Positions 20,815-64,000 of a DNA stretch of 64,000 nt are shown piece after piece (position 1 is the first letter of the stretch; each line of letters opens with the position of its first letter). The notes below the pieces were generated by a model. It saw only the letters and a list, made by a program, of their open reading frames with translations, made no database searches and was not told the DNA's origin. This stretch comes from Bifidobacterium gallicum DSM 20093 = LMG 11596 (lineage in GTDB: Bacteria > Actinomycetota > Actinomycetes > Actinomycetales > Bifidobacteriaceae): positions 62,001 through 126,000 of the forward strand of contig NZ_JGYW01000002.1 in NCBI RefSeq assembly GCF_000741205.1. The letters run 5' to 3'. A program made the position numbers and the translations under genes.

Positions 20815-21271
20815 CCGCACGTAAGGCAATTGCGTTACGTGCGGCCATGAGGGTTCCTACAGAAATCAATACAATCTCAACGTTTCCATAACCGCACGTA
20901 ACGTAACTGGCTTACGTGCGGGAGAAAGGAGCACGGAGAGCGACGGTCGCCCTATCCCCAATCCGCACGTAACGCAATTACGTTACGTGCGGCCATCAAC
21001 TTGAACAGCCCAAAGGAAACCCCGAAAACCACGGAAACCCGGAAACCACCATCCCCCTTCCCCGCACGTAAGCTAGTTACCTTACGTGCGGAGAGAGGTG
21101 TGAAGAAAACGGGACCGGCAAAACCGGACCTTCTTTCCCGCACGTAACGTAACTGGCTTACGTGCGGGAAAGAAATCCCAACACCCCCCAAAAAAACCTA
21201 GAAAGCTCAAGGACTCTAGAAAAACGGCACCCCTCCCCTATCCGCACGTAAACTAGTTGGCTTACGTGCGG
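20815..21271. repeat. Palindromic repeat cluster A (six copies)
   Basis: Six 30-bp elements at 20815-20844, 20892-20921, 20963-20992, 21062-21091, 21138-21167 and 21242-21271. Each has arms CCGCACGTAA and TTACGTGCGG around a 10-bp centre (for example GGCAATTGCG, CGTAACTGGC, GCTAGTTACC). Start-to-start spacing is irregular (77, 71, 99, 76, 104). Orientation of the centre varies. The copy at 21138 extends to 17-bp perfect arms (21131-21174). The cluster lies between the two binding-protein genes. No coding frame is credible here. Confidence 0.97.
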
Positions 21272-21335
21272 GAGGAAGGCGCAACGACAGCGAAGGGCGA
21301 ACGGTGATGGGGCTGAGGTAGTAGAGGAGTGTGGA

Positions 21336-22271
21336 TCAGTTGGTCTTGGGGTTGATCTCGGACTTGTCGATGGCGCCGGACTTCACGCCCCACGTCGTCA
21401 GGATCTCTTCATACGTACCGTCATCCATGAGCTTCTGGATTGCGGCTTGCACAGCCTTGTCCATGGCTTCGTCGCCCTTCTTGACGACGACGCCCTGCAC
21501 AGCCACGCCTTCATTTTCACCCAAAGGCTCGAGCACATCACCGGTCTGAGCGATCGCGTATTCACCAACCGGCGAATCGGCGAAGAACGCGACGGCCTTG
21601 CCGGTGGCCACATTCGTGGTCACATCGGTCTGCTGGGCGCTCGAGAGCACTTCCATTTCCTTCTTGCCGTCAGCCACGCACTGCTTGTTCATTTCGGTGA
21701 CTTCCTCTTCCTGCGTGGTGCCCGTCTGCACAGCAACGGTCAGACCACACAGGTCAGCGGTATCGACCTTGTCGGGATTGCCCTTGCGCGTCACCCACAG
21801 CGATCCGGCCTTGTAATAGGTTACAAAATCAACGGCTTCCATACGTTCCGGAGACACGGTAAACGAGGAAACGCCAATATCGTACTTATCGCCAACAGAC
21901 GGGATGATCAGGTCGAACTTGCTCGTCGTGGGCTCAGCTTCCAGACCCATGACAGCGGCCATGGCCTTGACCAGATCCACGTCATAGCCGACCGGCGTCT
22001 TGCCGTCCTCATTCAGGAACTCAGCGGGGGCATACGTCGTATCCATGCCGACGATGAGCTTGCCGTCCTTGGCATAAGCCTCGGGCACCATGGCCGCAAT
22101 CTCATCGTCCTTGGCAATCTTGGACGCATCAAACGACGACGTGGAAGCCGATGAGGAAGACTCCGACTTCGCTTCATCACTCGTACCACAAGCGGCGGAG
22201 GTCACACACAGGAATGCGGCAAGCACGGCGGCTGCGCATGTGGTCAAGGATCGGGTATCACTATGCTTCAT
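21336..22271 (-). CDS. Polar amino-acid ABC transporter substrate-binding lipoprotein 2
   Basis: SBP family 3, 311 aa, tandem paralogue of the gene at 19723. The signal peptide leads to TSAAC (lipid Cys about 28), followed by a Ser-rich linker (SESSSSASTSSF). Matching blocks include KLIVGMDTTYAPAEFLNEDG, DLIIPSVGDKYDIGVSSFTVSPERMEAVDFVTYYKAGS, GLTVAVQTGTTQEEE and GVKSGAIDKSEINPK. Both mature cysteines are kept. ATG 22271 is used. It is the promoter-proximal gene of the importer but is cut off from the rest by the repeat cluster, so it may have its own expression level. Confidence 0.94.
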   Translation of the reverse strand: MKHSDTRSLTTCAAAVLAAFLCVTSAACGTSDEAKSESSSSASTSSFDASKIAKDDEIAAMVPEAYAKDGKLIVGMDTTYAPAEFLNEDGKTPVGYDVDLVKAMAAVMGLEAEPTTSKFDLIIPSVGDKYDIGVSSFTVSPERMEAVDFVTYYKAGSLWVTRKGNPDKVDTADLCGLTVAVQTGTTQEEEVTEMNKQCVADGKKEMEVLSSAQQTDVTTNVATGKAVAFFADSPVGEYAIAQTGDVLEPLGENEGVAVQGVVVKKGDEAMDKAVQAAIQKLMDDGTYEEILTTWGVKSGAIDKSEINPKTN

Positions 22272-22474
22272 GGAATGATTCCTCTCATCTCTTCAATGTG
22301 ACGGCAAACCGCCAACTGCCCCGAAGCATAAGAACGCAGTGCTACGAAACGGTATCGAACCCCCAATTCATTCCGTCATATGAGATAGAAATACCGTCCC
22401 GACCACACCTTGAGATGAAGTACAGCCGCAGACGCAGGCGCAGTAGGCAACCTCACCAGGGTCGCAGGTACAAC

Positions 22475-22508
22475 GATGGGCCGGCGGAATCATTCCCGCC
22501 GACCCATC
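22475..22508 (-). terminator. Hairpin downstream of smpB
   Basis: GATGGGCCGGCGG (22475-22487) pairs with CCGCCGACCCATC (22496-22508), 12 of 13 bases, around an 8-nt loop. It lies about 35 bp past the smpB stop. No uridine run follows on the minus strand, so termination strength is uncertain. Confidence 0.5.
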
Positions 22509-22544
22509 GTCCGCAGCGCCCTACTACGTGCACCGCAACTATGC

Positions 22545-23039
22545 TTAAATACCACGCGCCACTTTGTTGCGGTATCGCATCACGCGCAACGCTTCACGCT
22601 TGTCTTGTTCTTCACGCAACGCCTGGCGCTTGTCGAATTCCTTCTTGCCTCGGGCCAACGCGATCTTGACTTTGACACGACCGTCTTTGAAATACAGGCT
22701 CAACGGCACAATCGTGTAGCCTTTGGCTTGGGTCTGGCGTGCAAGCTTCTCAATTTGTGCGCCATGCAGCAGCAACTTGCGTTTGCGTTTGGGCGCATGG
22801 TTGTTCCATGTGCCATTGAGGTATTCAGGAATGTTGGCGCCTTCAAGCCAAATCTCGCCGCGCCGGTCAATCGAGATGAACGCTTCCGCCAGGGACGCGC
22901 GTCCTTCGCGCAATGATTTCACTTCCGTGCCGGTCAGTACAATGCCCGCCTCATATTCATCTTCCAAGGCATAGTCGTGCCGGGCTTTTTTGTTTTGCGC
23001 AATGATGCCATCACGCACGCCTGACGATTTTTTCGCCAT
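22545..23039 (-). CDS. smpB: SsrA-binding protein SmpB
   Basis: tmRNA partner in trans-translation, 164 aa. The N-terminus [33 protein letters not shown] and the core [33 protein letters not shown] are diagnostic. The C-terminal tail is basic ([15 protein letters not shown]), as needed for the ribosome A site. ATG 23039 has AAGGAG 8 bases upstream. It closes the prfB-ftsE-ftsX-hydrolase-smpB block, an order conserved in many actinobacteria. I do not see an ssrA gene beside it. Confidence 0.97.
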
Positions 23040-23064
23040 GCTGTGTTCTCCTTATGAACATTGA

Positions 23065-24540
23065 TCAGTGCACATACCAGAACTGGCCCGCTCCAGCCAG
23101 CGTACGCGTCGATGTGATGTAAGGGCCTTTCACATTCATTTCAGAAATAAGAATCGTATCGCCATACACAGCTTCCACCACAGCCACATGGCCATAGGTC
23201 AGATCAGCCCAAGCCTGTCCTGGCAGGAACGAGACGGCGGCGCCCACTTGCGGCACATGGTCCACGCGCAACCCGTAGCTCGGGGCGGTGGCCCACCATT
23301 GGCCGCCATTGCCCAGATACGAAGGCGTGTTGATGCCCATTTCCTTACGGCGGTTGTAGGCGTACCACGTACATTGGCCGGGTACATAACCGTTGCCGTA
23401 ATCACCATTGGATGTGCCCTGCCCCGTGGGCGAAGGCGCCACGGGCGTTGGTGTCGGTGTCACGGGAGTCACGGGTGTCACTGGCGTCACCGGAGCCGCG
23501 GGTGTCACTGGCGTCACCGGAGCCGCGGGTGTTACCGGTTGCGCGGGTGTGGCCGGAGTCGAAGGCTGCGACGGGGTTGACGGAGTGGCTGGAGTTGAAG
23601 TTTGGGAGGATGTCGGACGCGTCGTACCCTGGGCTTGGTTGATTGTGACCTGTGCGGCGGCAGCGGCCTGTTCCTTCTGATACTGGCGGTTATAGGAGTC
23701 GACTTGGGACGAGAGCATCACCGTTTTCGCGGCTTGCTTCGCGGCATCGGACTTCAACTGGTCCTGCTTGGATTCCAGTTCGGCACGGGCCGCTTCACCT
23801 TGTACACGCAACTTATCCAACGCATCGCGCTCAGCTTGGGCTTTGGCTGCTGTGCTTTGCGCTTGCGCGGCTTTCTCGTCGGCGGTCTGCTTGAGCGTTT
23901 CGATACGCTTTTCAATGGCCTTGAGTCGCTCCCCACGATTCATCGACGTGTTGAGCTCGTCAGCGGCATCCGAAGCGGCGTTCGCTTCGTTACGAGAGAT
24001 GGCGTCACGCGACTGCATCGACTGGATGAAATCTTTGGTGTCTTTGGACCCCGTCATCACGCTCATCATGTCTGACGTGTCGGAACCATGCATTGATTCA
24101 CGCGCCACTTGGGCCACGGCGGCATGCGCGTCATCATAATCCTCGCCTGTCTGGGCGATCTTATGCTCAAGGTCTTCCTTGTCTTTGCGCGCGGCCTGCA
24201 AACGGTTGGCCGCCGCATCAGCCTCGCTTTGGGCAGCCGCAGCCGCATCGTTGGCGGCTGTCACCTTGCTTTGGGCCTCAGGAATTTGATTGTTCGTCAG
24301 ATCATCAAGTTCCACAATCTTGTCGGCCAATGACGACTCGACACCCGACAGCTGGCTACGCAACTGCGCTTCCCTCGCCTTGCTGGCCGCGTGCTGGTTT
24401 TGCGCATTGACCAAGTTGTCGTAGGTGTCAGCATAAGCCACCGGCGTGATGGTGCCGGTGGAAGCCAGAACCAGCGGCATTCCCATGGACAAAACAGCAC
24501 ATGCCGTGACAATAGGCTTGATCAGTCTGACTCGAGGCAT
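23065..24540 (-). CDS. Secreted CHAP-domain peptidoglycan hydrolase with coiled coil, probable FtsEX partner
   Basis: About 491 aa. The signal peptide ends near VAYA-D (residue about 37). Residues 40-290 form a long coiled coil rich in Ala, Gln, Glu and Lys (for example [22 protein letters not shown]). A proline/threonine/valine linker built from repeats of PVTP and PAAPVTP follows (about 300-375). The C-terminal CHAP domain has the catalytic Cys in [12 protein letters not shown] and His in [13 protein letters not shown]. This is the architecture of PcsB and similar hydrolases that FtsEX activates through their coiled coil. Its position directly downstream of ftsX supports the same role in daughter-cell separation; that role is inference. 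ATG 24540 has AAGGGA 5-6 bases upstream. Confidence 0.92.
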
Positions 24541-24764
24541 GATTCCCTTTCCATTGACTTCACTTGGCAATGCGGCTTACACATCACTCATTGTAGCGGG
24601 CTGGTTACGCCACAGCTGCAAACAGTTCCACGCTACCACCCCTGGCAGGCTGGGGCTCCAGGTTGTGCGCAGCGGCAACAACAGTTTTCACAAACCCTAC
24701 AAAATCCATCCGTAATACGCAGGCACTCCGGCAGCCATTTCGGTCCGACAGCCCGGCGGTTTCG

Positions 24765-25688
24765 TCAAGCTTTCAGATAACGCCGCAATGCCACGCTCGA
24801 AGCGATAATCGACAGCACCACTGCTCCGGCAATCAGGATCGGCGAGACAATCCACACATCACGCTGGCCCACGTAAGGAATCCAGGTGATTGATTGCGCG
24901 AGCCAATCAGTAATGAACACTTTGACGAGCACGCCCAACGACACGCACGACAGCACGGATCCCAGCAGTGAAGCGATTACTCCTTCAAGGATGAACGGCA
25001 GTCGGATCGTCCAGTTTGACGCGCCGACCAGTCGCATGATTTCCGTTTCTTCACTGCGTGACGCAGCGGACATGCGGATCGTGGTGCCCGTCAACATGAT
25101 CGCGACGAGCACCATCACAGCGGCCAGCCCGGCCGTGGCCACGGTCGCCCTGTTCAGCACGGCGAATACGGGCTCGAAGATCTGGCGTTGATCCACGACT
25201 TCCTCGACGCCTTCCTGCCCCGACAACACTTCGGACACGACCTTGTATTTTTCAGGATTCTTGAGTTTGAGCCATAGCGAATCCTGCATGTCGTCCGCCG
25301 TCAGCGTGCGGCCTTGGTATTGTCCGCCCGGATATTGCTTGAGGAACGAATCGTTATAGAACTGTTCCTTGCTCATGAACGTGACTTCCGACACGTCATC
25401 GGCCAGTTCAGTATTGATGACTTTCTGCAGATCGTTGATCTGCGCGGCCGTCGCCGCCGTTCCCGCCGCACAGTTCGCGGATGCGCTTGTTCCATCCGGG
25501 CACAGCCAGACAACCACCTCGACTTTGTCATACCAGTCACCTTTGGCCTTGGTGATCTGCGCCTGGGTCAGCAGGGATGCACCGATGAACAGGAATGAGA
25601 TGAACGTGACGAGCATGACCGACAACAACATCGGGACGTTGCGACGCAAGCCCGTAGCCGTTTCGGACATTACGAACCGGAATCTCAT
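24765..25688 (-). CDS. ftsX: Cell division protein FtsX
   Basis: Membrane subunit of FtsEX, 307 aa. One N-terminal helix (MLLSVMLVTFISFLFIGASLL) is followed by a large extracytoplasmic loop (about 45-175) that contacts the hydrolase. Three C-terminal helices follow, around AGLAAVMVLVAIMLTG, GVIASLLGSVLSCVSLGVLV and VSPILIAGAVVLSIIASSVA. Two cysteines in the loop (WLCPDG, ANCAAG) may form a disulfide. The start overlaps the ftsE stop by 4 bases (ATGA). Confidence 0.96.
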   Translation of the reverse strand: MRFRFVMSETATGLRRNVPMLLSVMLVTFISFLFIGASLLTQAQITKAKGDWYDKVEVVVWLCPDGTSASANCAAGTAATAAQINDLQKVINTELADDVSEVTFMSKEQFYNDSFLKQYPGGQYQGRTLTADDMQDSLWLKLKNPEKYKVVSEVLSGQEGVEEVVDQRQIFEPVFAVLNRATVATAGLAAVMVLVAIMLTGTTIRMSAASRSEETEIMRLVGASNWTIRLPFILEGVIASLLGSVLSCVSLGVLVKVFITDWLAQSITWIPYVGQRDVWIVSPILIAGAVVLSIIASSVALRRYLKA

Positions 25689-27073
25689 CGTGCATCCTCC
25701 TGACCGGTCGTCTGACCGGCATCCTCATGTGGTGTGGTATCTGTTGCGCTGGTTGGGTTGTCCGTCGCCGTTTTCTTACGGCGAGCACGGTGGCGGCCGC
25801 GTGCGGCCGGTGGTGCCGGAGGTGTCGGCGGAGCCGGAGGCGCCGGACGTGACTGCGGGTCTTCCGCCTGCTCAGTACCACCCTGGGCTTGGGTTTGTTC
25901 GGTAGCCTGCTCACTGACGGCATCAGGCTCGGTCACCTGCGCGGTTTCGCTGGTGCGGTCCGTCTGCCCATCGTTATGTTCCGGCAGTGACGCGTCGGCT
26001 TGGGGTTCAGTATCGCTCGCGTCGCTGGGTGAGGAATCAGCATGATCTTTTTTATTTATGCTGTCCAAATCGAGACCTTTACCCCACGTAAACGTCTGTT
26101 CCACGGGAGCGAATGCTTCACCATAGCGGCCAGTATTGCCCGCATGGACGGACCGTGCGAGGCGGGCGATACCTTCATCGGTGTGACCGCTGGTAAGCGC
26201 TTCGGACACGGCCTGCACCATGACGGCCGCATTGCGCTCCCCCAGTGAGGCGACTTGCAAACCTTGCTGCGGCATGGCAATGGGCTGTGTGACGCCACGC
26301 ACCACATCCGTCGCGTCACCGTCGTACGGATTCGTGATGGCCTCATGGGAACGCGCCTGCACTTGGGCGTCGGGGAAGAACAACGTCGAATCATAGGAAC
26401 CGTGCTGCTCGTCGCGCACAATCTTGCCGTTATGCAACTCGACCACGCGCTTGCGCATCGAATTGACGATCTCTTCGTTGTGCGTGGCCATGACAATCGT
26501 GGTGCCCGTACGGTTGATGGCCTCGAGCACTTCCATAATGCCCAACGATGTGGTCGGATCAAGATTGCCGGTGGGCTCGTCGGCCAGCAGGATCTGCGGA
26601 TGGTTCACATACGCGCGCGCGATGGCCACGCGCTGCTGCTCACCACCCGACAATTCCTGCGGCATGCTTTTTTCTTTGCCCGTCAAGCCCACGGTCTGCA
26701 GCACACGCGGCACCAGCGAACGGATGGCCGAACGCGGGGTGCCGATGACCTCGAGCGTGAACGCGACGTTCTCCCACACCGTTTTGTTGGACAACAGCTT
26801 GTAATCCTGGAACACGGTGCCCACGGAACGGCGATACTGCGGCACCTGCTTGTTGGGCAAGCGGCGCAAGTCATAGCCGCCAATGCGGATCTCGCCGTCC
26901 GTGGCCTCTTCCTCACGCAACATCAGACGCAGCAGCGTCGTCTTGCCTGAGCCCGAGGCCCCCACGAGGAACACGAAGTCACCCCGGTCAATATGCAGGT
27001 CGATGCTGTCCAACGCGCGACGGGTCGCACGCGGATACACCTTGTTCACCTTGTCCAACGAAATCAAAGCCAT
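25685..27073 (-). CDS. ftsE: Cell division ATP-binding protein FtsE with long C-terminal extension
   Basis: ABC ATPase of FtsEX. Walker A GASGSGKTT (about 38-46), Q-loop VFQDYKLLSNKTVWENV (a typical FtsE wording), signature LSGGEQQR, Walker B ILLADEPTGNLD, and ATHNEEIV for the H-loop. The canonical domain ends near residue 225. About 235 further residues follow: a moderately ordered part to about 345, then a low-complexity Asp/Glu/Thr/Gln tail, a proline cluster and a basic patch (RGRHRARRKK). ATG 27073 has GGAG 8-9 bases upstream. It follows prfB by 43 bp. Confidence 0.95.
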   Translation of the reverse strand: MALISLDKVNKVYPRATRRALDSIDLHIDRGDFVFLVGASGSGKTTLLRLMLREEEATDGEIRIGGYDLRRLPNKQVPQYRRSVGTVFQDYKLLSNKTVWENVAFTLEVIGTPRSAIRSLVPRVLQTVGLTGKEKSMPQELSGGEQQRVAIARAYVNHPQILLADEPTGNLDPTTSLGIMEVLEAINRTGTTIVMATHNEEIVNSMRKRVVELHNGKIVRDEQHGSYDSTLFFPDAQVQARSHEAITNPYDGDATDVVRGVTQPIAMPQQGLQVASLGERNAAVMVQAVSEALTSGHTDEGIARLARSVHAGNTGRYGEAFAPVEQTFTWGKGLDLDSINKKDHADSSPSDASDTEPQADASLPEHNDGQTDRTSETAQVTEPDAVSEQATEQTQAQGGTEQAEDPQSRPAPPAPPTPPAPPAARGRHRARRKKTATDNPTSATDTTPHEDAGQTTGQEDAR

Positions 27074-27116
27074 GATTCATGCTCCGTTCTTGGTGCTGCG
27101 AGCCTGGTAGCGACGA

Positions 27117-28247
27117 TTAATCCTCGCCGTTTTCGGCGCTTTCGCGGCGCTGCTCATGACGCCAGCGGATGCCGGCCTGGATGAAGGCGTCGATGTCACC
27201 ATCGAACACGGCTTGTGTCTGGCTTGTTTCCTCACCCGTGCGCAAATCTTTGACCATCTGATACGGGTGAAGCACGTAGGAGCGCATCTGGTCGCCCCAA
27301 CTGGCCTTGATGTCGCCAGCGAGTTCCTTCTTCTTCTTGGCTTCTTCCTCATGGCGCAGCACCAGCAGACGCGACTGCAACACAGCCATGGCCGCGGCAC
27401 GGTTCTGGATCTGCGAGCGCTCATCCTGCATCGTCACAACGATGCCGGTAGGGATGTGCGTGATGCGCACAGCCGAATAGGTCGTGTTGACGCCCTGGCC
27501 GCCCGGGCCTGACGCGCAGTAGGTGTCGACGCGGATTTCACTTTCGGGCACTTCAATATGGTCGGTTGCCTCGACGAGCGGCACCACTTCGACGGCGGCG
27601 AAGCTGGTTTGGCGGCGTCCCTGGTTGTCGAATGGCGAGATGCGCACGAGACGGTGCGTGCCGCCTTCCACGGACAGGCGTCCATACGCATATGGGGCGT
27701 CGACTTGGAAGGTGGCCGATTTGATGCCGGCTTCTTCGGCGTATGAGGTGTCCATGACTTTCGCTTTGTAGCCGTTGCGTTCAGCCCAGCGCAAGTACAT
27801 ACGCAACAGCATTTGGGCGAAGTCGGCGGCGTCGACGCCACCGGCGCCGGAGCGGATCGTCACGACGGCGGATCGCTCATCATACTCACCGTCCATGAGC
27901 GTCTGGATTTCCATGTCGCGCAAATCGTTGGTGATCGATTCCACTTCGGATTGCGCTTCGTCGAGCGTATCCTGGTCGGCTTCCTCACGGCCAAGCTCGA
28001 CGAGCGTTTCCACATCGTCAATACGTGACGCTGCGGAAGCCAGATGCTTGAGCTGCGACTGCACAGCCGACAGTTTGCTCGTCACTTTCTGGGCGTGTTC
28101 AGGGTCGTCCCACAAGCCGGGTTCCGCAGCTTCCTGTTCGAGCTGGGCGGCTTGGGATTGCAAACGGTTGACATCAAGAGCCAGCGCGATCTCTTCATAC
28201 TTGGCACGGGCTTCAGAGATGGCCTGCGAAAAATCAAATTCTGCCAT
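27117..28247 (-). CDS. prfB: Peptide chain release factor 2
   Basis: Releases peptides at UGA and UAA. The GGQ catalytic motif is in [20 protein letters not shown]. The RF2 stop-codon tripeptide SPF is in [15 protein letters not shown], which separates it from the RF1 gene in this window. 376 aa. The frame runs from ATG 28247 without interruption, so the programmed +1 frameshift used by many prfB genes is absent. The ribosome-binding site is weak, with GGAAGAG lying about 14 bases upstream. Confidence 0.97.
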
Positions 28248-28855
28248 GATTAACGAATATTCTCTTCCATTACTTCAACTAAGGACTCATACGGATAGGC
28301 GCATCAGGCCGGTTCATGCATAATGCCGTGCTGTGACCTGCTCAATGGCTGCATGCCTCTGTGCACAGGGCCTCTGGCACGGGCGTGGGGCGGCATGTTC
28401 GCCAACCGCCAGCGGCAAATGCCTCAATCACGCGTCAAGACATTCGCAAACACGGTCACCTGATTGAATTGCACACTTTTGCATGATGCAACAACGGCCA
28501 TCATGCGCGTCAAAGTCCCGCATGGTTCATATAAGCGCTCATATTGGGTTAGTGTACGCCACACGGTAGTCGCGCGCACGGGCGTTCGTTGCATGGCGCA
28601 CGGCTTTACACGGTGGTTGACGATGTTCCACCACCCCCGTCACCTGAACAACGAACTGTGAGACCATATGCATGTCGCGGTCGCATGCCGAACAACACTT
28701 TGCATTACAGTAGTGGCGGAATACGCATTTGCATATGCAGACATAGGGACTTGAAGCTACTGGCGCATGGCTCTGGCCTGCGTTGCTGCAAATGCGACCA
28801 GCACCGCATACATCGCTGGCTCTTGGCCAGTGATCATTGATACAAGGAGCTATCC
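28248..28855. other. 608-bp divergent intergenic region between prfB and dapD
   Basis: Holds the promoters of two divergent genes. I see an AAGGAG ribosome-binding site for dapD at 28844-28849, but no coding frame, tRNA or recognisable RNA gene. The short frames inside have no ribosome-binding site and no family resemblance. Its length is unusual for this dense region. Confidence 0.5.
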
Positions 28856-43472: not shown

Positions 43473-43816
43473 CCGCACGTAAGCTAGTTGCGTTACGTGC
43501 GGGAAGGGTAGCAAGGAACAACAGCACCTCACTCAGTTCCTAAGTTCCCGTACAGCCGCACTCGCCTTCCCGCACGTAAGCCAGTTGCGTTACGTGCGGG
43601 ATAAGCAGGACGGAAAGCATGGTCGTCATAGTTATCGGGCCCTATCCACCTCTCCTCACCTTCCGCACCGCTCCCCGCACGTAACGCAACTGGCTTACGT
43701 GCGGGATACGTAGGAACGTTGGGCACGATTATTATGCCTATCCCGCGCCCGTAACCACACCTGCGCCAGCAGCACCCCCCTCTTTCCCGCACGTAACGCA
43801 ATTGCGTTACGTGCGG
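43473..43816. repeat. Palindromic repeat cluster B (four copies)
   Basis: Elements at 43473-43502, 43570-43599, 43675-43704 and 43787-43816, with the same arms as cluster A and centres GCTAGTTGCG, GCCAGTTGCG, CGCAACTGGC and CGCAATTGCG. The last centre is itself palindromic, and its flanks extend to a perfect 54-bp palindrome (43775-43828). The first extends to CTTCCC/GGGAAG flanks. Lies between the orn start and the guaB terminator. Confidence 0.97.
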
Positions 43817-49952: not shown

Positions 49953-50327
49953 CCGCACGTAAGGCAGTTGCGTTACGTGCGGGAAGAAACAGCAGTCCCC
50001 CCACTACTCCCGCACGTAAGCCAGTTACGTTACGTGCATGGAGCACGACAAGCCAAGGGCAATAATCAAAATTCCGGCCATCCTACGCAAACACCGATGC
50101 CCACCTCGCGCCGCATCCCCTTCCTCTTTCCCGCACGTAAGGCAGTTACATTACGTGCGGGGAAAGAAAGTATCGTCACTCTCCCCTCGCCGCACGTAAG
50201 CCAGTTACCTTACGTGCGGAAACCAAGACGAATGGAAGATCAAAACCCGACCATCCTACGTAAACTTCCGCGACCACCTCCGCCCCACTGCTCCTTCCCG
50301 CACGTAAGGCAGTTGCGTTACGTGCGG
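49953..50327. repeat. Palindromic repeat cluster C (five copies)
   Basis: Elements at 49953-49982, 50010-50039, 50131-50160, 50190-50219 and 50298-50327, with centres GGCAGTTGCG, GCCAGTTACG, GGCAGTTACA, GCCAGTTACC and GGCAGTTGCG, all in one orientation. Start spacings alternate 57, 121, 59, 108, indicating duplication of a two-element block. The second copy ends TTACGTGCAT, a decayed arm. Lies in the 743-bp gap between prfA and rpmE; a long open frame here is only translated repeat. Confidence 0.97.
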
Positions 50328-55278: not shown

Positions 55279-55417
55279 GGATCCATCCTCACTTCACAGG
55301 TCGTCACTGATTGAATGGTCATCGAACTGTATGCATGCTACCGTCAAGAGAATATCGATGCCATTGTCATGGTATTCCCAGTCTAATCGTTTATGGATAT
55401 AACTGTTCACCCAAGTC

Positions 55418-55431: not shown

Positions 55432-55691
55432 TATTCTCAAGAAACCCAATGCTAAAACGTTTTATTATAGCTCATTCCTGACGGGGGCGTGTCATCTTGT
55501 GCGGTGAACGCAAACCGGCCAAGACTACTAGCCTGATAGTGAAACAGGATGTGAAGGAATTGTGTAGTTCAGTTTCCCCACCTCCTGATTAGAGAAACAG
55601 AATGGAAATCCTCCTGCATCGGCAGGGTCGTGGCGATGATCGCAAGGTTGCAATCAACCGATTGCCACCGCCTTTACCGCAGGGTGGAAAC

Positions 55692-55709
55692 TGCAGCGAT
55701 GTCGCTGCA
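55692..55709 (+). promoter_or_regulatory. Palindrome TGCAGCGATGTCGCTGCA, candidate operator 2 of nucleoside cluster
   Basis: Two 8-bp half-sites, TGCAGCGA and TCGCTGCA, flank a TG centre. It lies 29 bp before the nupC ATG, in the 5' leader. It repeats the core of the palindrome at 55418. Two sites with the same core in one promoter region are consistent with looping or cooperative repression. Confidence 0.5.
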
Positions 55710-55737
55710 CAGCATATCAAGAGGAAAGAAGGTTCCC

Positions 55738-57069
55738 ATGTACCTCGTGGTCAATATCGTGGGCCTGCTCATATTCTTGGGGTTGGGTTGGGTGTTCTCG
55801 CACAACCGCAAGGAAATCGACTGGAAATCCGTCGGATGCATGGTGTTGCTCAATCTTGTGATTGCTTGGTTGCTCACCAGCTTTACCTGGGGACGCGCTG
55901 CCGTCCACGCCTTGGCGCAAGGCTTCACCTGGATTGTCAACGTCTCGTATCAGGGTATCAATTTCGCCATCGCCAACTGGGTTGGAGCCAATGGTGCCGA
56001 CCCGGCCCCGGTGAACTTCATCACGAGCGCACTGCTGCCAATCCTGCTGATTGTCCCAATGTTCGACATCCTGACCTACATCGGATTCTTGCCTTGGTTG
56101 ATTAAGTGGATTGGCCGCGGTTTGAGCTTCATTACGCGCCGCCCCAAGTTCGAAGCGTTCTTCGCTGTGGAAATGATGTTCCTGGGCAACACCGAAGCCT
56201 TGGCTATCTCGCAAATCCAGCTCAAGAAGATGAAAGCCGGCCGTGATTTGACGCTGGCCATGATGTCGATGAGCTGCATCACCGCCGCCATTGTTGGCGC
56301 ATACGTACAGATGGTACCTGGTGAATTCGTCATTACCGCAATTCCTCTGAACTGCATTAACGCGTTGATTGTGGCCCATATGCTTTACCCTGTCACCGTC
56401 ACGCCGGAAGAAGACAAGATTTACACGATTGCCGATTCCGCCGACGAAACCCCTGTGGAGGATGGCACTGCTGTGCAGCAGGCTGAATTGTCTACTGAAG
56501 TCAAGGAATACCAGGCGCTGCCTTGGTACAAGAAGATCATCACGCACGATCCGTCCAAGCCCAAGAAGGAACCATTCTTCTCGTTCCTGGGCGATTCGAT
56601 CCTCACCTCGGGTCGTCTGATCCTGATCATTACGGCCAACGTCATCGCGTTCGTTGCGCTTGCCGGTCTGATTGACAAGGTGCTTGGCCTGATTTGGGAC
56701 AAGTTGACGCTGGAAGCCATCCTTGGCGTGTTCATGTACATTCCGGCTTGGCTCATGGGCCTCGATCCCGGTACCGCATGGGATTTCTCGCAGCTGATGG
56801 GTCTCAAGCTCGTCACCAACGAATTCGTGGTCATGGGTCGCGTCACTGGAGATATCGCCAACTACGCCCCGCACTACAAGGCTGTGCTCACGGTGTTCCT
56901 GACTTCGTTCGCGAACATCTCCACGTTGGGCATGATCATCGGTACGTTCAAGGGCATGGTCAGCAAGGAGAAGAACGATCTGATCTCCAAGCAGGTTGGA
57001 CGTATCCTGCTCTCGGGTGTCCTCGTCTCGCTGCTCTCCGCCGCCATGGTCGGCCTGTTCGTCTGGTGA
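55738..57069 (+). CDS. nupC: Concentrative nucleoside transporter (NupC/CNT family)
   Basis: Cation-coupled nucleoside importer, 443 aa, with multiple membrane spans (first: MYLVVNIVGLLIFLGLGWVF). CNT features: FFAVEMMFLGNTEALAISQIQLKKM, MSMSCITAAIVGAYVQM, and the C-terminal GLKLVTNEFVVMGRVT and TSFANISTLGMIIGTFKGM, where T.EF and F.N.S are family motifs. A hydrophilic loop (about residues 225-285) contains many Glu and Asp. ATG 55738 has AGAAGG 5 bases upstream. First gene of a plus-strand nucleoside catabolic cluster. Confidence 0.95.
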   Translation: MYLVVNIVGLLIFLGLGWVFSHNRKEIDWKSVGCMVLLNLVIAWLLTSFTWGRAAVHALAQGFTWIVNVSYQGINFAIANWVGANGADPAPVNFITSALLPILLIVPMFDILTYIGFLPWLIKWIGRGLSFITRRPKFEAFFAVEMMFLGNTEALAISQIQLKKMKAGRDLTLAMMSMSCITAAIVGAYVQMVPGEFVITAIPLNCINALIVAHMLYPVTVTPEEDKIYTIADSADETPVEDGTAVQQAELSTEVKEYQALPWYKKIITHDPSKPKKEPFFSFLGDSILTSGRLILIITANVIAFVALAGLIDKVLGLIWDKLTLEAILGVFMYIPAWLMGLDPGTAWDFSQLMGLKLVTNEFVVMGRVTGDIANYAPHYKAVLTVFLTSFANISTLGMIIGTFKGMVSKEKNDLISKQVGRILLSGVLVSLLSAAMVGLFVW

Positions 57070-57118
57070 TCACAGATCACTTGATCACCTAGCGCATAGC
57101 GCCATATCACTATCAATG

Positions 57119-57169
57119 ACATGAGGGACCTCACAAGGATTGTATTGCTCGATCCCGCGGCCCCTCATG
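57119..57169 (+). terminator. Possible terminator or attenuator after nupC
   Basis: CATGAGGG near 57119-57126 can pair with CCCCTCATG near 57161-57169, with a large loop. The stem is moderate and no T run follows. It could reduce readthrough into deoC. Confidence 0.35.
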
Positions 57170-57223
57170 CCATATCAATCACCACACTTGCCCGAACAGT
57201 CCTGGAATTGTTCGCCAGCAACC

Positions 57224-57245
57224 TGGCTCACAGTGATGTGAGCCA
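57224..57245 (+). promoter_or_regulatory. Inverted repeat in the deoC leader
   Basis: TGGCTCAC (57224-57231) and GTGAGCCA (57238-57245) are exact complements with a 6-bp spacer, 31 bp before the deoC ATG. Could be an operator or a leader hairpin. It does not share the CAGCGA core of the nupC sites. Confidence 0.4.
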
Positions 57246-57275
57246 TTCCCTACCCCACCATCGAAAGGACACACG

Positions 57276-57953
57276 ATGACCCTCACCGTCGAGGAACTCG
57301 CCAAATACATGGACGCCACACTGCTCAAGGCCGATGCCACAGAAGAGCAAATTGATGAGCTGTGTGATGAAGCCAAGCAGTACGACACTGCATCCGTATG
57401 CGTCAACCCCTACTGGGTATCGCGCGCAGCCAAGAACCTGGCCGACACCGACGTCAAGGTGTGCACCGTAATCGGTTTCCCATTGGGAGCCAACACCACG
57501 GCCACCAAGGTCTTCGAAACGAATGACGCCATCAATAACGGCGCTGATGAAATCGATATGGTCATCAATATTGGCGAACTCAAATCTGGGCATGATCAAG
57601 TGGTGTTCGACGACATCAAGGCCGTGGCCGATGCGACCCATGCCCAACACAAACTGCTCAAAGTCATTATTGAAACCGCATTGCTCAATGATGATGAGAA
57701 AATCCGGGCCACCAAGATGACGCTGGATGCCGGTGCCGATTTCGTCAAGACGTCCACCGGTTTCTCCACTGCAGGCGCCACAGCACCCGATGTGGCATTG
57801 ATGCGCGAAACCGTCGGCCCCGACTTTGGCGTCAAAGCAGCTGGTGGCATCCACTCGCTCGAAGAGGCTTACGACATGATCAATGCGGGCGCTACGCGAC
57901 TTGGCGTATCCGCCCACGTGCAAATCCTTGAGGAAGCCAAGCAAAACGCCTGA
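57276..57953 (+). CDS. deoC: Deoxyribose-phosphate aldolase
   Basis: Splits 2-deoxyribose-5-phosphate to acetaldehyde and glyceraldehyde-3-phosphate. 225 aa TIM barrel. The Schiff-base lysine lies in [15 protein letters not shown] and the second lysine in [23 protein letters not shown] and [16 protein letters not shown] are the conserved N-terminal strands. ATG 57276 has GAAAGGA upstream. It receives the product of deoB from deoxynucleosides. Confidence 0.97.
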
Positions 57954-57973
57954 CTGATCCATTCACAGGCTGC

Positions 57974-58014
57974 GCCAGCTTAAGCATGCATTATCGCAGC
58001 ATTCTTAAGCTGGC
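57974..58014 (+). terminator. Hairpin after deoC
   Basis: GCCAGCTTAAG (57974-57984) pairs perfectly with CTTAAGCTGGC (58004-58014); GCATGC/GCA pairing inside lengthens it. It starts 21 bp after the deoC stop. There is no long T run. deoB downstream therefore probably has its own promoter as well. Confidence 0.6.
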
Positions 58015-58240
58015 ACGGCACGTGGACGCAATATCAGTAGCATCAATCGAACACCTACCAAACCTTTCCACTACTACACCACTACACCACCACAATCGGG
58101 GATTTTCACGCGCAAAGTCAGGGGATGACGTTGCACGTACCTAACCACTCTCAGCTGAGGCCTGTTCAACGGCATGGAAGCCGCATGGCCGCACACCATT
58201 GTGGACGTCCTGGTTCAACGACGAAATGGGGCATACCATC

Positions 58241-59449
58241 ATGACCAACACCAACTATCGTTTTCCTCGCGTATTCGCCATCGCGCTTGATTCCATCGGC
58301 ATCGGCGAAGCACCTGATGCAGCCAAATTCAATGATGTGGGAGCGGATACGCTCGGCCACATCGGCGCCTTCATGAAAGGCGGCCTGCACCTGCCTAACA
58401 TGCAACGGCTGGGATTGGGCAATATTCGCAGCGACAATCCCATTGAAGGTGTGGAGCCAATCGAACACCCTATCGGCTGCTATGGCAAGATGACTGTCAC
58501 AAGTTGGGGCAACGACTCATTGGATGGCCACTGGGAAATGATGTGCCTGCCCGTACGGTTCAACATGTCGTTCTTCCCCAACGGCTTCCCCCAACAAATC
58601 GTCGACAAGCTTGAAGCCTTCTCCGGGCGCAAAGTCATTGTCAACAAGCCCTATTCAGGCACTGAAGTCATCAAAGACTACGGTGAACACCAGATGGAAA
58701 CAGGCGACCTGATTCTGTACACCTCAGGTGATTCGGTGCTGCAAATCGCGGCCCATGAGGATGTGATTCCGCTCGAAGAGCTCTACCGCATCAGCGAATA
58801 TGCGCGCACATTGATCAACGGCCCTGAAATTGTGATGGGTCGCGTAATCGCGCGTCCTTATGTGGGACCCGACAAAGATCATTTCACACGCACGTCGAAC
58901 CGCCATGATTACGGATTGGAGCCCACTGCTCCGACCGCATTGGACTATCTGCATGGTGCAGGTCTCGATGTGCTTGCCGTCGGCAAGACGAATGACATTT
59001 TCTCCGGCCACGGCATCGACCGCGGATGGCGCAACAAGAGCAATATGGATGGCATGGACCATGTTGACGAAGCCATGGGACTCGACTTTACGGGCCTGTG
59101 CTTTGCCAACCTCGTGGATTTTGACGCGATGTACGGTCACCGTCGCAATGCCCAAGGTGATGCTGAAGCGCTTATGGATTTCGACCGTCGTCTCGGCACC
59201 GTATTGGATGCCATGCGTCCTGATGATTTGCTGATGATTACCGCCGACCACGGCAATGATCCGACCTATACGGGCACCGACCACACCCGCGAGTTCGTGC
59301 CACTGCTCGCGTATAGCCCTACAATGCACCATCCCGGCACCTCATTGGGGGTGCGCAGCACCTGCTCGGACATGGGAGCCACGATTCTCGACAACTTCCA
59401 CGTTGAGGGCAATGGCGAAGGCACCAGCTTCCTTGAAGCCATCAGCTGA
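58241..59449 (+). CDS. deoB: Phosphopentomutase
   Basis: Interconverts (deoxy)ribose-1-phosphate and -5-phosphate. About 402 aa, alkaline-phosphatase superfamily. [31 protein letters not shown] has the first metal Asp and the phosphorylated Thr; [29 protein letters not shown] has the remaining metal ligands (Asp, His, His). ATG 58241 gives [12 protein letters not shown]; a start 15 bases earlier is possible. No strong ribosome-binding site is seen. Confidence 0.96.
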
Positions 59450-59605
59450 CGGTCACATGCGTCAAGCGCATGCCCTTTGCGCCGAGGAACACCACTCCTA
59501 AACCAATACGTCAACATCCAATTCACATCAGCACATTGCGCCGGTCTGGAACGTCTTGGCATCCCAACCCATGACACGTCCAGCCGCGAAGAAAGGAAGA
59601 CCACC

Positions 59606-60313
59606 ATGGCCACTCCACACAATGAAGCCGCACCTGGCGATTATGCTCCAATCACATTATTGCCCGGAGACCCCTTGCGTGCACAATACATCGCCGAACA
59701 CTTCCTCGACGATGTTCGCCAAGTCAATGGTGTGCGCAACTGCCTCGGATTCACGGGTTCTTACCAAGGCCACCCCATTTCCGTGCAAGGCACGGGCATG
59801 GGCATTCCCAGCATGTCCATCTATGTGACCGAATTGGCGACCGTGTATGGCGTGACCACAATGTTGCGCGTCGGATCATGCGGAGGTGTCGACCCACGGG
59901 TCAATCTGCGCGACATCCTGCTCGCACAAGGTTCCTCCACGGATTCCAATGTTGTGGCAAACACGTTCCAGCCAGGCATCCACTATGCCCCGCTTGCCGA
60001 CTTCGAGCTGCTGAACACAGCCTATACAAAAGCGCAAGAGCTTGGGCTGCACGTGCGCGTGGGAGACATATTCGCCGCCGACCGGTTCTACAACGATGAA
60101 ATCGATATGCGCAAACTCGCCGATTATGGCGTGTTGGGCACAGAAATGGAATCCGCTGGATTCTACCTGTTGGGAGCCAAATACCACTTCCGTGCGCTGT
60201 CAATTCTGACAGTATCGGATTTGCTGCTGCGCGAAGGATCCACCACAAGCAAGGAACGCGAAACCGGATTCAACGACATGATCCATCTCGCGCTCGAAAC
60301 GGCTATCGCCTGA
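59606..60313 (+). CDS. deoD: Purine-nucleoside phosphorylase (DeoD type)
   Basis: Hexameric PNP cleaving purine (deoxy)nucleosides with phosphate. 235 aa. ITLLPGDPLRAQYIAEHFLDD, GMGIPSMSIYVTEL, TTMLRVGSCGGVDPRVNLRDI (phosphate site), LGTEMESAGFYLLG (ribose site) and ILTVSDLLLR (the catalytic Asp) all match the family. ATG 59606 has GAAAGGAAGA upstream. Releases ribose-1-phosphate, which deoB converts. Confidence 0.97.
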   Translation: MATPHNEAAPGDYAPITLLPGDPLRAQYIAEHFLDDVRQVNGVRNCLGFTGSYQGHPISVQGTGMGIPSMSIYVTELATVYGVTTMLRVGSCGGVDPRVNLRDILLAQGSSTDSNVVANTFQPGIHYAPLADFELLNTAYTKAQELGLHVRVGDIFAADRFYNDEIDMRKLADYGVLGTEMESAGFYLLGAKYHFRALSILTVSDLLLREGSTTSKERETGFNDMIHLALETAIA

Positions 60314-60473
60314 CGCAGGCAGCGGCCAGGAAGCAGCCACAGTAATACCAATACTCATTCTCTTCACCCCTACCGCCGCGCTGCCTGTCAACCTTGAACA
60401 CCCTCAAATCCGGGAGACAGGCAGCCTGCGGACCATTGCCGCGGCGTAACGCGGACCACAAAGGAGGCTCCCC

Positions 60474-61778
60474 ATGCGAATGGTGGACGTTATCGACACG
60501 AAACGCAACAACCAAGCGCTCAGTGACGAACAAATCGATTTCTTTATTGACGGATGTACGGACGGTTCGATTCCCGATTACCAGACGAGCGCACTGCTCA
60601 TGGCCATTTGGCTCAACGGAATGAACCAACGTGAGATGCAGCGATTGACGATGGACATGTTGCACTCAGGCGACGAACTCGACTTGAGCGACATTGACGG
60701 CATCAAAGTCGACAAGCATTCCACCGGAGGAGTTGGCGACAAAACCAGCATCCCGTTGGCACCGCTCGTGGCGTCACTGGGCATTGTGGTGCCGATGATT
60801 TCCGGACGCGGCCTGGGACACACAGGAGGCACGCTCGACAAGCTGGAAGCCATTCCGGGGTTCCAAGTGGAAATTGATGAGGACGCATTCAAACAACAAT
60901 TGCGCGACGTAGGTTGCATTATTGCAGGAGCTACTGGGAATATTGCACCTGCGGATAAGAAAATTTACGCACTGCGCGATGTTACCGACACAGTTGATTC
61001 GATTCCGCTGATTGCCGGGTCCATCATGAGCAAGAAAATCGCGAGCGGCACCGATGCGCTGGTCATGGATGTCAAAACAGGATCGGGCGCGTTCATGAAA
61101 AGCGAGGAGCAAGCGGCCGAACTGGCGCGCACGCTCGTCGACATCGGTAAAGGTGTAGGAATGAACGCGATGGCCGTCATCTCCGACATGAACCAGCCGC
61201 TCGGTAAAGCCATCGGCAACGCGTTGGAAATTCAAGAATCCATTGAACTGCTCAAAGGCAACGGACCGGCCGACCTGGAGGAGCTCGTGCTGACCATCGG
61301 CAGCCAAATGGTAGTCATGGCCGGCAAAGCCGACACACTCGACGAAGCGCGCGAACTGCTCAAAGCCCAGATTGCCAACGGCGAGGCTCTCGACACGTTC
61401 CAGCGCATGATTGAGGCACAAGGCGGTGACGGCAACGTCATCAACGACTACACACTCCTGCCGCAAGCCAAATACCATGTGCCGCTCACCGCCAAGCATG
61501 CGGGCGTCATCACGGGCATGAAAGCCGATGAGCTTGGCGTGGCATCGATGATGTTGGGCGGCGGACGCGCAGCCAAAGAGGACGAACTTGACTATGCAGT
61601 CGGCCTCGTGCTCGACAAGAAAGTCGGCGACCATGTCGACGAAGGCGAGCGCATCCTCACAATCCATACCGACCGTCCTGATGTCGACGATGTCATTGAA
61701 TTGCTCGAATCCAACATCACTATTGGAGATGCCGAGGATGTGCCTTCAATGCCGCTGATTCACCGCATTATCGAATGA
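60474..61778 (+). CDS. deoA: Pyrimidine-nucleoside / thymidine phosphorylase
   Basis: 434 aa. The phosphate-binding motif is [26 protein letters not shown], followed by [22 protein letters not shown] and [24 protein letters not shown], diagnostic of the thymidine phosphorylase family. The C-terminal domain has [37 protein letters not shown]. An AAAGGAGG stretch lies just before ATG 60474. Last gene of the nucleoside cluster. Whether it prefers uridine as well as thymidine cannot be told. Confidence 0.95.
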
Positions 61779-62279
61779 CCGGGAATGTGCGGTTCGCACC
61801 CGCGTGGCTCCCTCCAGTCTCCAGCCTCCAGTCTCCAGCCTCCAACTAGCCACCGCATACGCCGTGCCGGCGCGTCCATGGTGGAGCTGGTGACCGATTC
61901 AAGTCGTGGTTGCCGCATCCGACGAACTATCCGACTATCCCCATTGTCGGATACGGCAACCGCCCATCTCAAGCTCAAGTCGCGTCCGCTATGCGCATCA
62001 GGCGAATCACGCGCATCAGGCCACACGCATCGTGCCACATGCCGTCGCCCTGCACGGCCATGGACGCGACCACAGCAATCATCCATCATCAACCCGCCGC
62101 CGACACACAAGGAGCCGCACCCCCTAAAGCTTTGTTGACCCACTGATCCACAACCCAACCCAGCAATGGGCGCGGTGACGAGGCGCGATCATCTCGTCAC
62201 CGCGCCCACTTACTATTCCAGCCAACCAAACCAATCTCCTGAAATCCCCTAATTTATTGTGAAGAAAAGCAGTATCCCC
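61779..62279. other. 501-bp intergenic region with a 14-bp duplication
   Basis: Between deoA and the MFS gene. Contains two tandem copies of TCCAGTCTCCAGCC (61813-61826 and 61827-61840), a loose duplication around CGCATCAGGC (61995-62030) and the strong terminator at 62168. No credible gene. Confidence 0.6.
62168..62207 (+). terminator. Long perfect hairpin before the MFS gene
   Basis: GGGCGCGGTGACGAG (62168-62182) and its exact complement (62193-62207) form a 15-bp GC-rich stem with a 10-nt loop, followed by ACTTACTATT. It is far (390 bp) from the deoA stop, so a leader role for the MFS gene is also possible. Confidence 0.65.
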
Positions 62280-63761
62280 ATGACAACGAAATCCAATCCG
62301 GAGACGCAAACAGACGCGCAGGCGCGCACGGCAAACGGTTCATCCGTACGTTCCTTGGGTGCGCTACGCCCGGCAACTCAGCCTGGCACGCCGCAAACCA
62401 ATGGATCCGACGCTGCCGAGGTTGCCAGGCGCGCGCGTAAAACATTGTTCCCGTTGTTGGGTATCTATCTGCTTGGCGCGCTGTGTTTGCAGGCTTTCAA
62501 TATGGTGTTCGCCAAAATCGGTTCGGATTTGGGTGCCGCGACGAACGCTTCGCTGATTACAGCCATCCCTGGCGTCGTGCTTGCCATCGTGTGTTTCATT
62601 TACGGTTCACTCGGTGATTTCGCGAGCCTGAAAACAATGACCGTGTTTGGCATTGTGACGCTGGTTGTAGGGTCCGTTGGCGGATTCTTCCTGCACGGTT
62701 CGCTCGTGTTCGTCATCCTGTTCCGTATCATTCAAACGATCGGTTTTCAAACCGCCGGTTCCGTGTATCTGGTTGTTGTGGCCCGATATTTGACGGAGCG
62801 TGAGAAACTGCTGTATTTCGGCCTGTTCACGGCCGACTACCAGTTGGCTACCGCCATTGGCGTGGTGTCTGCCGGCGTGTTTTCGGCCATCGATTGGAAG
62901 TTCCTGTTCCTCATTCCGGTCATTGCTGTGGTCTTTATTGTGCCGCTGCTGAAGTATCTGCCTGGCAAAACCGGCGGCAAGACGCATATTGACGTGCCCG
63001 GTTTCGGTTTGTTTGGTGCGGCCATTTTGTTCTTGACGCTGTTCTTCTCGGTGTTGGACTGGTGGATGCTGGCTGTGAGCGCCGCGTTCCTCGTGCTGTT
63101 CGCCATATACATCACGAAGGCCGACAACCCGTTTGTCACGCCCGAGTTCTTCAAGAACACGGCCTGGCGTGAATCGGTGTTGCTGATTGTCATCTTCTAT
63201 TTCATCAACTTTGCGATTACTCCGTTGTGCAATGATTTCGGCGCGGGCCTGTTCGGCATGTCGAGCACCCAGGTGTCGCTCATGCTGCTGCCCGGCTTGA
63301 TTATCGCCACGATCACCGGTTGCTTCTCGGGACGTATCGTCACCAAGCTCGGCAAACGCTGGTCCATCACGCTGGGTGCCGGACTCATGGCTGTCGGTTT
63401 CATCGTCGGCGGTTTGTTGTTGCGTTTGGGCCCTGTGCTCATTGGCATTTGTGCCGCACTGATTTACGCTGGCATGGCCACGCTTTACTCCCCGACGGCC
63501 AACACGGTGCTCGGCACGCTGCCGCCTGAGCAGACAGGCCGCGGCGTGGGTATGAACGATCTGGCCATGCAGGGTTCCGGCGCCGTGGGCATCGCGCTGT
63601 TCGGCGGCCCGATCTCCACTCACGCGTTCGCTGGCAACACGATTCTCGGCCCCGAGGGCACCTACGCGAGTTCCGCCACGATGCTCATCATTTTCGGCGT
63701 CATCGTCGCCTCTGGCGTCTTGTGGCTACAACTGCACCACAAGAAGTTCTACCAAGCCTAG
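62280..63761 (+). CDS. Major facilitator superfamily transporter
   Basis: About 493 aa with 12-14 spans after a 55-residue hydrophilic N-terminal tail. The first span is LFPLLGIYLLGALCLQAFNMVF. Others include GVVLAIVCFIYGSLGDFASLK (motif A region), IIQTIGFQTAGSVYLVVVARYL and FGLFTADYQLATAIGVVSAG (motif C-like). The C-terminal half has LPPEQTGRGVGMNDLAMQGSGAVGIALFGG, which resembles drug/proton antiporters of the QacA/TetA(L) type. Substrate unknown. I start at ATG 62280; a GTG at 62259 would add seven residues. Neither has a strong ribosome-binding site. Confidence 0.87.
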   Translation: MTTKSNPETQTDAQARTANGSSVRSLGALRPATQPGTPQTNGSDAAEVARRARKTLFPLLGIYLLGALCLQAFNMVFAKIGSDLGAATNASLITAIPGVVLAIVCFIYGSLGDFASLKTMTVFGIVTLVVGSVGGFFLHGSLVFVILFRIIQTIGFQTAGSVYLVVVARYLTEREKLLYFGLFTADYQLATAIGVVSAGVFSAIDWKFLFLIPVIAVVFIVPLLKYLPGKTGGKTHIDVPGFGLFGAAILFLTLFFSVLDWWMLAVSAAFLVLFAIYITKADNPFVTPEFFKNTAWRESVLLIVIFYFINFAITPLCNDFGAGLFGMSSTQVSLMLLPGLIIATITGCFSGRIVTKLGKRWSITLGAGLMAVGFIVGGLLLRLGPVLIGICAALIYAGMATLYSPTANTVLGTLPPEQTGRGVGMNDLAMQGSGAVGIALFGGPISTHAFAGNTILGPEGTYASSATMLIIFGVIVASGVLWLQLHHKKFYQA

Positions 63762-63809
63762 CCTTTCCTCCCATTCCGCCCTTCGCCCCTCTCCCCTTTC
63801 CTCATCATC

Positions 63810-64000
63810 CCGCACGTAAGCTAGTTGCGTTACGTGCGGGATGATTCCAGCCAGTCTCATGCAACATCTTCAGTTACATCCCACCTTCCCGCACGTAAGC
63901 CAGTTGCGTTACGTGCGGGAACATCACCGGCACTCTTTTGCAATGTTCTTAGTTACATCACATTCCCGCCTCTTCCGCACGTAAGCTAGTTGCGTTACGT
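63810..64000. repeat. Palindromic repeat cluster D (three copies, continues past window)
   Basis: Elements at 63810-63839, 63889-63918 and 63975-64000 (cut by the window end), with centres GCTAGTTGCG, GCCAGTTGCG and GCTAGTTGCG in one orientation, 79 and 86 bp apart. The first has extended complementary flanks ATCAT/ATGAT (63804-63845). The spacers are related: GCAACATCTTCAGTTACATC versus GCAATGTTCTTAGTTACATC, so the unit of duplication includes the spacer. Downstream of the MFS gene. Confidence 0.96.

Follow-up and report, generated by a model that had tools for sequence, protein, structure and literature searches.

The 64,000-nucleotide stretch analyzed here (the window) comes from Bifidobacterium gallicum DSM 20093 and corresponds to positions 62001-126000 of contig C2 in the 2.0 Mb genome of this organism (G000), which is available as 12 contigs. 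A first-pass annotation had drawn attention to a family of palindromes in the intergenic regions of this window, and a scan with the pattern CCGCACGTAA-N10-TTACGTGCGG, allowing up to 3 mismatches, recovered 17 full copies, 16 of which were exact and one of which (at 50010) had 2 mismatches. Given that 100 shuffled versions of the window had a mean of 0.01 matches, with a maximum of 1, the family is real. An 18th copy, at 63975, is clipped by the edge of the window and is whole in the genome (C2:125975-126004). The copies are grouped in four clusters, A to D, with 6, 4, 5 and 3 members respectively, the last of which extends past the edge to reach 5, and the spacing between copies within the window is 57-121 bp. 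The genes that flank clusters A, B and C are on the same strand, while those that flank cluster D converge. The existence of the family, the cluster sizes, the spacing, the mixed orientation of the centers and the same-strand setting of the first three clusters were all as the annotation had described them.

In cluster A, the copies at 20815-20844 and 20963-20992 have centers of the AA/AA type (GGCAATTGCG and CGCAATTACG, respectively) and were assigned no strand. The copy at 20892-20921 has its AACT half on the + strand, that at 21138-21167 is a + strand copy with an AC center, and those at 21062-21091 and 21242-21271 are - strand copies with GT centers, the former with its AACT half on the - strand. 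Cluster B has two - strand copies with GT centers (43473-43502 and 43570-43599), a + strand copy with an AC center (43675-43704) and a strandless copy (43787-43816) whose center, CGCAATTGCG, is a perfect palindrome. All members of cluster C (49953-49982, 50010-50039, 50131-50160, 50190-50219 and 50298-50327) and those of cluster D within the window (63810-63839, 63889-63918 and the edge-cut copy at 63975-64000, which is followed by two more) are - strand copies with GT centers. The arms of the full copies show no mismatches other than in the copy at 50010-50039, where the last two bases of the right arm are altered.

The family is not limited to the window, as the genome scan called for by the annotation revealed 105 copies when up to 2 mismatches were allowed (84 exact, 17 with 1 mismatch and 4 with 2), all of which lie in C2:82.8-262.3 kb, a domain of about 180 kb that makes up about 9% of the genome. 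Scanning the entire C2 contig locally also returned 105, indicating that there are none elsewhere. Arms in these copies deviate from the consensus at 25 of 2100 sites, or at 51 of 2220 when six copies with 4-5 mismatches are included. They form 34 clusters, including many single copies, and neighbors less than 400 bp apart show spacings of 57-264 bp, which are mostly irregular. A 59 bp period is seen in 8 spacings (29 bp spacers), with spacers that are partly unlike each other, and a test for helical phasing of the spacings was unrewarding (p~0.04 at 10.5 bp, 0.05 at 11 bp and 0.5 at 10 bp). With the limit raised to 5 mismatches, the domain has 111 copies, of which 4 overlap genes predicted by a simple caller of our own (with an overlap of 10 bp in one case); the predicted genes cover about 77% of the DNA. 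The domain includes guaB, xylA, ftsH, lysS and serS, and its right edge falls immediately ahead of closely packed small genes of high conservation at C2:268-284 kb, which we take to be ribosomal protein operons. Adjoining serS is a segment (C2:235000-240000) that is AT-richer (47% GC versus about 57%), and that has genes with no relatives in the stretches fetched from B. dolichotidis (G074) and two other genomes of the genus, G086 and G063.

The centers of the palindromes are constrained. Of the 105 copies, 48 have GT as their middle dinucleotide, 44 have AC, 12 have AT and 1 has TC, and none has GC. One AG half is combined with one AA half in 92 of these centers, and two AG halves are found in none, so that the center orientation is mixed, as earlier noted, but is not free to vary. 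A14 and T17 are invariant in all 105, and positions 13, 15, 16 and 18 fit YARYTR apart from a single copy that deviates at 15 and four that deviate at 18. Beyond the arms, pyrimidines are enriched on the left and purines on the right. An explanation for the pattern of the centers comes from B. dolichotidis, which by lysS (91%) is the closest to B. gallicum of the 112 genomes in our sample of the genus (own genome included). In its C2:60-460 kb, the exact arm TTAYGTGCGG occurs 127 times, and 76 of these arms have no recognizable partner; such solitary half-sites have a consensus near TGYAWCTSGCTTAYGTGCGGGA. The unit is an asymmetric half-site of about 20 bp with a consensus of about GYAACTSGCTTAYGTGCGGGA, and the palindrome is such a half-site with an inverted second arm, the two half-sites overlapping in the center. 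This overlap, which is clear from the sister species, accounts for the skewed center dinucleotides.

The half-site is confined in the same manner as the palindrome in B. gallicum, with 203 of the 206 exact TTAYGTGCGG matches in the genome being on C2, against 14 genome-wide for the reversed control. A half-site matrix trained on B. dolichotidis detected 227 sites above 15 bits on C2, all at 80-280 kb, while shuffled sequences gave 0-5; at the same threshold, 1 site was detected in 200 kb of G086 and none in either 200 kb of G063 or a 280 kb stretch of G010. In B. dolichotidis, the units also occur in tandem with periods of 20-37 bp, down to 20 bp in the head-to-tail arrangement. One half-site array with a 30-36 bp period (C1:936458-936644, locus L149) lies outside the main domain of this species and within a long reading frame resembling an ABC ATPase.

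In B. dolichotidis, where the copies have diverged, we found 56 palindromes at up to 3 mismatches, and those among them that were listed are all at C2:162-312 kb. The gene order of this enriched domain is colinear with that of the palindrome domain in B. gallicum. Of 71 gaps of the domain whose flanking genes are adjacent in both species, 11 have arrays in both, 6 and 6 in one only, and 48 in neither (Fisher p=3e-5); a permutation stratified by gap length expects 4.9 shared gaps (p=1.5e-4). The same gaps have thus often been occupied in both species. When the 112 genomes were searched with the exact degenerate arm pattern, only B. gallicum, B. dolichotidis and G010 were hit, and a search at up to 3 mismatches of 59 genomes of the genus and order (own genome included, B. 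dolichotidis not among them) returned, apart from the own genome, five places in G010 and a single one in G024. Across a wider set of genome contigs, the exact pattern was found in two stretches of B. dolichotidis and once each in two metagenome bins, the latter with unlike centers. The G010 palindrome is a different one; its arms are CCGCACGCAA/TTGCGTGCGG, its outer arms are longer and its period is 62 bp. It is present in 7 copies (at up to 4 mismatches, counting those alike within the 400 kb fetched) at three places, C1:788765-788856, C1:1127664-1127817 and C3:168244-168335, and was left out as unrelated or too distant. The scan of relatives proposed in the first-pass annotation hence extended the family to a sister species, though to no other genome of the genus sample. 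We found no description of such a palindrome in Bifidobacterium in the titles and abstracts of the open-access literature.

With regard to chromosomal position, dnaA is on C1 rather than on the palindrome contig. In those genomes of the genus that consist of one contig, and whose sizes are rounded, about 0.36-0.8 Mb separate dnaA from the domain gene lysS (examples being 474 kb in G059, 538 kb in G063 and 608 kb in G024). In both species, GC skew keeps the same sign across the domain in 20 kb windows, with single 5 kb windows scattering around zero, and the majority gene strand is constant. Given the distance of lysS from dnaA and the lack of a skew reversal, the domain looks to be on one chromosome arm, at neither the origin nor the terminus. 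Origin-linked sites were set aside on the grounds of the location of dnaA and its distance from lysS, and terminus-linked sites on the grounds of the constant skew and because no good match to any of three dif-type consensus strings was seen on C2. An additional ParB as the reader of the sites was likewise rejected, since each of five genomes has a single ParB locus (in two pieces in three of them), that of B. gallicum being near dnaA.

The placement of the arrays relative to genes bears on whether they are operators through which a local regulator controls many genes of the region. The intergenic placement and the strongly conserved two-fold symmetry of the site would suit such a role. However, the domain contains unrelated housekeeping genes, arrays are also found between convergent genes, and arrays are nearer to the 3' ends of genes (median 132 bp) than to their starts (median 312 bp; p=0.003). 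We accordingly set aside promoter operators, and a regulator's site, as suggested earlier, now appears very improbable.

Proximity to gene 3' ends would, on the other hand, suit hairpins formed by RNA or single-stranded DNA, either as REP/BIME elements moved by an enzyme like the REP-associated tyrosine transposase (RAYT) or as transcribed structures acting in termination or RNA stability. Inverted 10 bp arms in clustered, intergenic copies numbering over 100 are likewise as in REP families, the six bases flanking the arms show a modest complementarity in both species (see below), and B. gallicum has three genes for Y1 (IS200/IS605-type) transposases. Against this, the arms do not covary in B. 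dolichotidis. At the variable arm base, the combinations of left A/G with right T/C are AT 24, AC 14, GT 9 and GC 8 (Fisher p=0.56; 55 scored of 64 palindromes at up to 4 mismatches, the other 9 having other bases), and over ten arm positions combined 510 were paired versus 505.8+/-5.7 after shuffling of the partners (p=0.26). Of the co-directional gaps, 17 of 76 contain arrays, as do 6 of 20 convergent and 5 of 20 divergent ones, so that divergent gaps hold them as often as the others. As the arms lack covariation and arrays occupy gaps of every gene orientation, an RNA hairpin is disfavored, and the arms are better read as bound DNA. The many solitary half-sites also speak against hairpins, and Rfam models at the gathering score detected only tRNAs in the window and C2:100-240 kb, on account of which known RNA families were set aside.

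The transposase link fares no better. The Y1 genes are on contigs with no palindromes (C3:31835, C3:138907 and C5:408573), no Y1 transposase was matched in B. dolichotidis, in which palindromes are nevertheless present, and the consensus of the 105 copies has no GT[AG]G (GTAG) or CGTC head. Together with the restriction to about 9% of the genome, this leaves the REP/BIME-like identity proposed in the first-pass annotation, and its search for a RAYT-like gene, without a positive result; we rejected membership in REP on the transposase link, the head and the absence of a genome-wide spread, with the arms not covarying and the flanks modestly paired. Taken together, we consider hairpins of either kind improbable.

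A further alternative is that the copies are recombination sites or iterons from a mobile element, such as tyrosine recombinase sites, plasmid-type iterons or abutted transposon ends. The solitary asymmetric unit of about 20 bp, the short direct arrays and the 20 bp head-to-tail period in B. dolichotidis are reminiscent of iterons, and the orientation of the center is flipped between some homologous units, though at a threshold too lax for this to be interpreted. Conversely, recombination between such sites would not be expected to leave the gene order colinear with the sister species. Both tyrosine recombinases of B. gallicum are on C4 and none is on C2, and their sites were set aside for this reason; plasmid initiator genes were not searched. 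Sample arrays found no convincing match in plasmids (one 27 bp match at E=0.7) and no match in phages, and one pattern found no match in viral contigs, on which basis a phage, plasmid or viral origin was set aside. This origin of the sites is the one that we hold least probable, at the level of a slight chance.

The contrast between arms and spacers bears on the question of whether the sites are maintained by selection. In 25 pairs of units with homologous spacers, the spacers differ at 330 of 1661 sites and the arms at 38 of 1000, making the arms about 5 times better conserved, for pairs that come from 16 of 71 spacers, were picked for similar spacers and are not independent. For the other 55 of the 71, no partner passed the threshold applied, with only spacers of similar length having been compared, so the spacers would appear to be old or unrelated while the arms were held. 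Since these spacers are partnerless although the arms are near-identical, most copies look old.

The principal rival explanation addresses the same data. It holds that the palindromes are selfish or neutral, non-autonomous repeats of about 20-50 bp, which spread locally along with flanking sequence and expand in tandem; confinement would then reflect short-range copying from a founder, and conservation would reflect recent or continuing turnover instead of use by the host. Consistent with this, related spacers are found in gaps 5-54 kb apart, some of them inverted, and tandem units occur in both species, with the above-mentioned periods of 59 bp in B. gallicum and 20-37 bp in B. dolichotidis. 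Gaps with arrays are also longer than the corresponding gaps of array-free relatives (median 609 versus 188 bp for G086 in 9 gaps; 660 versus 120 bp for G063 in 6), with array-free gaps differing less (190 versus 136 bp in 32 gaps and 182 versus 104 bp in 27, respectively). Furthermore, the right part of the domain (208-262 kb) has a second composite element of about 50 bp, 'B', in which a solitary half-site is preceded by a small CCTT...AAGG-like inverted stretch. It is seen at C2:208441-209071, 224358-224943, 232642-233087 and 262243-262300, with 76-94% likeness in the longer matches, and is inverted in the 224 kb array. However, old unselected copies should decay like their spacers, in contrast to what is seen for the partnerless majority, and the similarity of centers shows no gradient with distance (Mantel r=0.01, p=0.41). 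No linked mobile gene was seen, the tyrosine recombinases being on C4 and Y1 being absent from B. dolichotidis, in a survey that did not extend to serine recombinases or other transposases. Should the family prove selfish, its restriction to 9% of the genome, with no transposase that could be linked to it, would be odd in another way. We think that local spread of this kind is rather unlikely, though it is the main competitor; selection and copying have both left traces in the palindrome units.

The reading that we favor, at about an even chance of being right, is that the palindromes are selected, double-stranded sites of an architectural or domain-marking protein on one chromosome arm. A putative sequence-specific DNA-binding protein would recognize each palindrome as two overlapping inverted half-sites of about 20 bp, and the sites would be kept by selection for this binding. 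The bound domain might be looped, clustered or anchored, working in the manner of matS/MatP for Ter or of RacA sites near the origin. Short composite units were probably copied locally, which would have produced part of the copies, and these were subsequently retained. Of the roles that the first-pass annotation had listed, a nucleoid-binding site is the one that fits best; the two main facts, namely the confinement to one domain and the asymmetric half-site, were out of view in the window alone. A more specific version, in which a mid-arm macrodomain with its own dense sites and a dedicated, fast-evolving binding protein has arisen in one small lineage of Bifidobacterium, is put forward tentatively.

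Several observations weigh against selected protein-binding sites. Complementarity between the six flanking bases on either side of the arms exceeds that obtained by shuffling, both in B. gallicum (307 versus 284+/-9.8, p=0.014) and in B. dolichotidis (143 versus 124.7+/-8.2, p=0.016), and still does so when each cluster is represented by a single copy (p=0.029 and 0.006, respectively), with shifted controls being null. This six-base test came after a wider one of positions 2-10, in which B. gallicum showed no difference (363 versus 351+/-13), and the signal hints either at a weak stem outside the arms or at past copying templated by a hairpin. The dependence among the 25 homologous pairs tempers the conservation of the arms, and the centers of these pairs differ at 160 of 500 sites, which is more than their spacers do. 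Composite units were evidently copied, over a mean distance of 21 kb where permutation gives 49 kb (p=0.015 in a post hoc test). In B. dolichotidis, where C1 was read over only about 70 kb, 40 of 167 exact half-sites are outside C2:60-460 kb (against a control of 11 genome-wide), there are outlying clusters at C2:463-493 kb and C1:936-942 kb that local spread would also explain, and 51 of 284 matrix matches are inside called genes. The family is known from two species only. Lastly, no clear candidate for the binder was found among the genes examined, the rest of the genome not having been screened.

A weak lead in this respect is a gene of the DUF559 family, which lies in the domain of both species (C2:152847-153812 in B. 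gallicum and C2:230538-231557 in B. dolichotidis), encodes 321-339 aa and is a 61% ortholog between them. A tblastn search with its last 136 aa gave no match in the 200 kb fetched from G086 nor in that from G063, and the gap matching the locus is only about 230-245 bp in these genomes. Members of the family at E<=1e-6 are found in 81 of the 112 genomes (B. gallicum and B. dolichotidis included), with none in G086, and the next-best full-length matches are 33-42% identical. The gene was scored low by the gene caller, which suggests an unusual codon use.

Among known systems, the parS/ParB and RacA motifs are palindromic sites around the origin that are read by a dedicated protein, and the present sites share with them a concentration in one chromosomal region. 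They differ in that dnaA and the sole ParB locus are on another contig, and that a long distance separates lysS and dnaA in closed relatives. CRISPRs likewise have repeats of about 30 bp, and the few arrays with 29 bp spacers (59 bp period) that are partly unlike each other recall them; however, the spacing here is mostly irregular (57-264 bp), the 34 clusters include many single copies and the centers vary, cas genes not having been searched. REP, BIME and REPIN elements are, as far as described in the sources cited, short intergenic palindromes in over 100 copies, with clusters and mosaic spacers (PMC2817692, PMC3116915, PMC3733652), all of which are seen here too. A RAYT gene flanked by two inverted copies is a feature of such families. 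In those accounts, a GT[AG]G or CGTC head defines REP (PMC2817692, PMC3733652), and most families are genome-wide, GTAG-23 of T. roseum being an exception (PMC3733652). The palindromes described here depart from these in having no such head and no RAYT link, in being restricted to one domain, in arms that do not covary and in their asymmetric half-site unit.

Few chromosomal regions have a described family of domain-marking sites (Ter and Ori being those in the literature that we looked at). If the favored reading is correct, a dense family on a chromosome arm in two sister species would show how domain marking arises and would offer a clean case for its role. The nearest parallel is matS/MatP of the enterobacterial Ter macrodomain, where, in the account given by PMC3330122, the 13 bp matS is found 23 times within 800 kb of terminus DNA, as short sites repeated within and limited to one chromosomal domain. 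The palindromes of B. gallicum are 30 bp long, number 105 in about 180 kb, occur in arrays on one arm and have a binder that is hypothetical. matS itself is not matched by them, given the difference in length (13 versus 30 bp) and the absence of a skew reversal, the MatP gene not having been searched. We do not claim membership in matS-type systems, the resemblance being functional only. Two features of a domain-confined binding-site system are seen here, namely the confinement to one domain, which is complete in B. gallicum and, with outliers, predominant in B. dolichotidis, and the conservation of the arms beyond that of the neighboring non-coding DNA.

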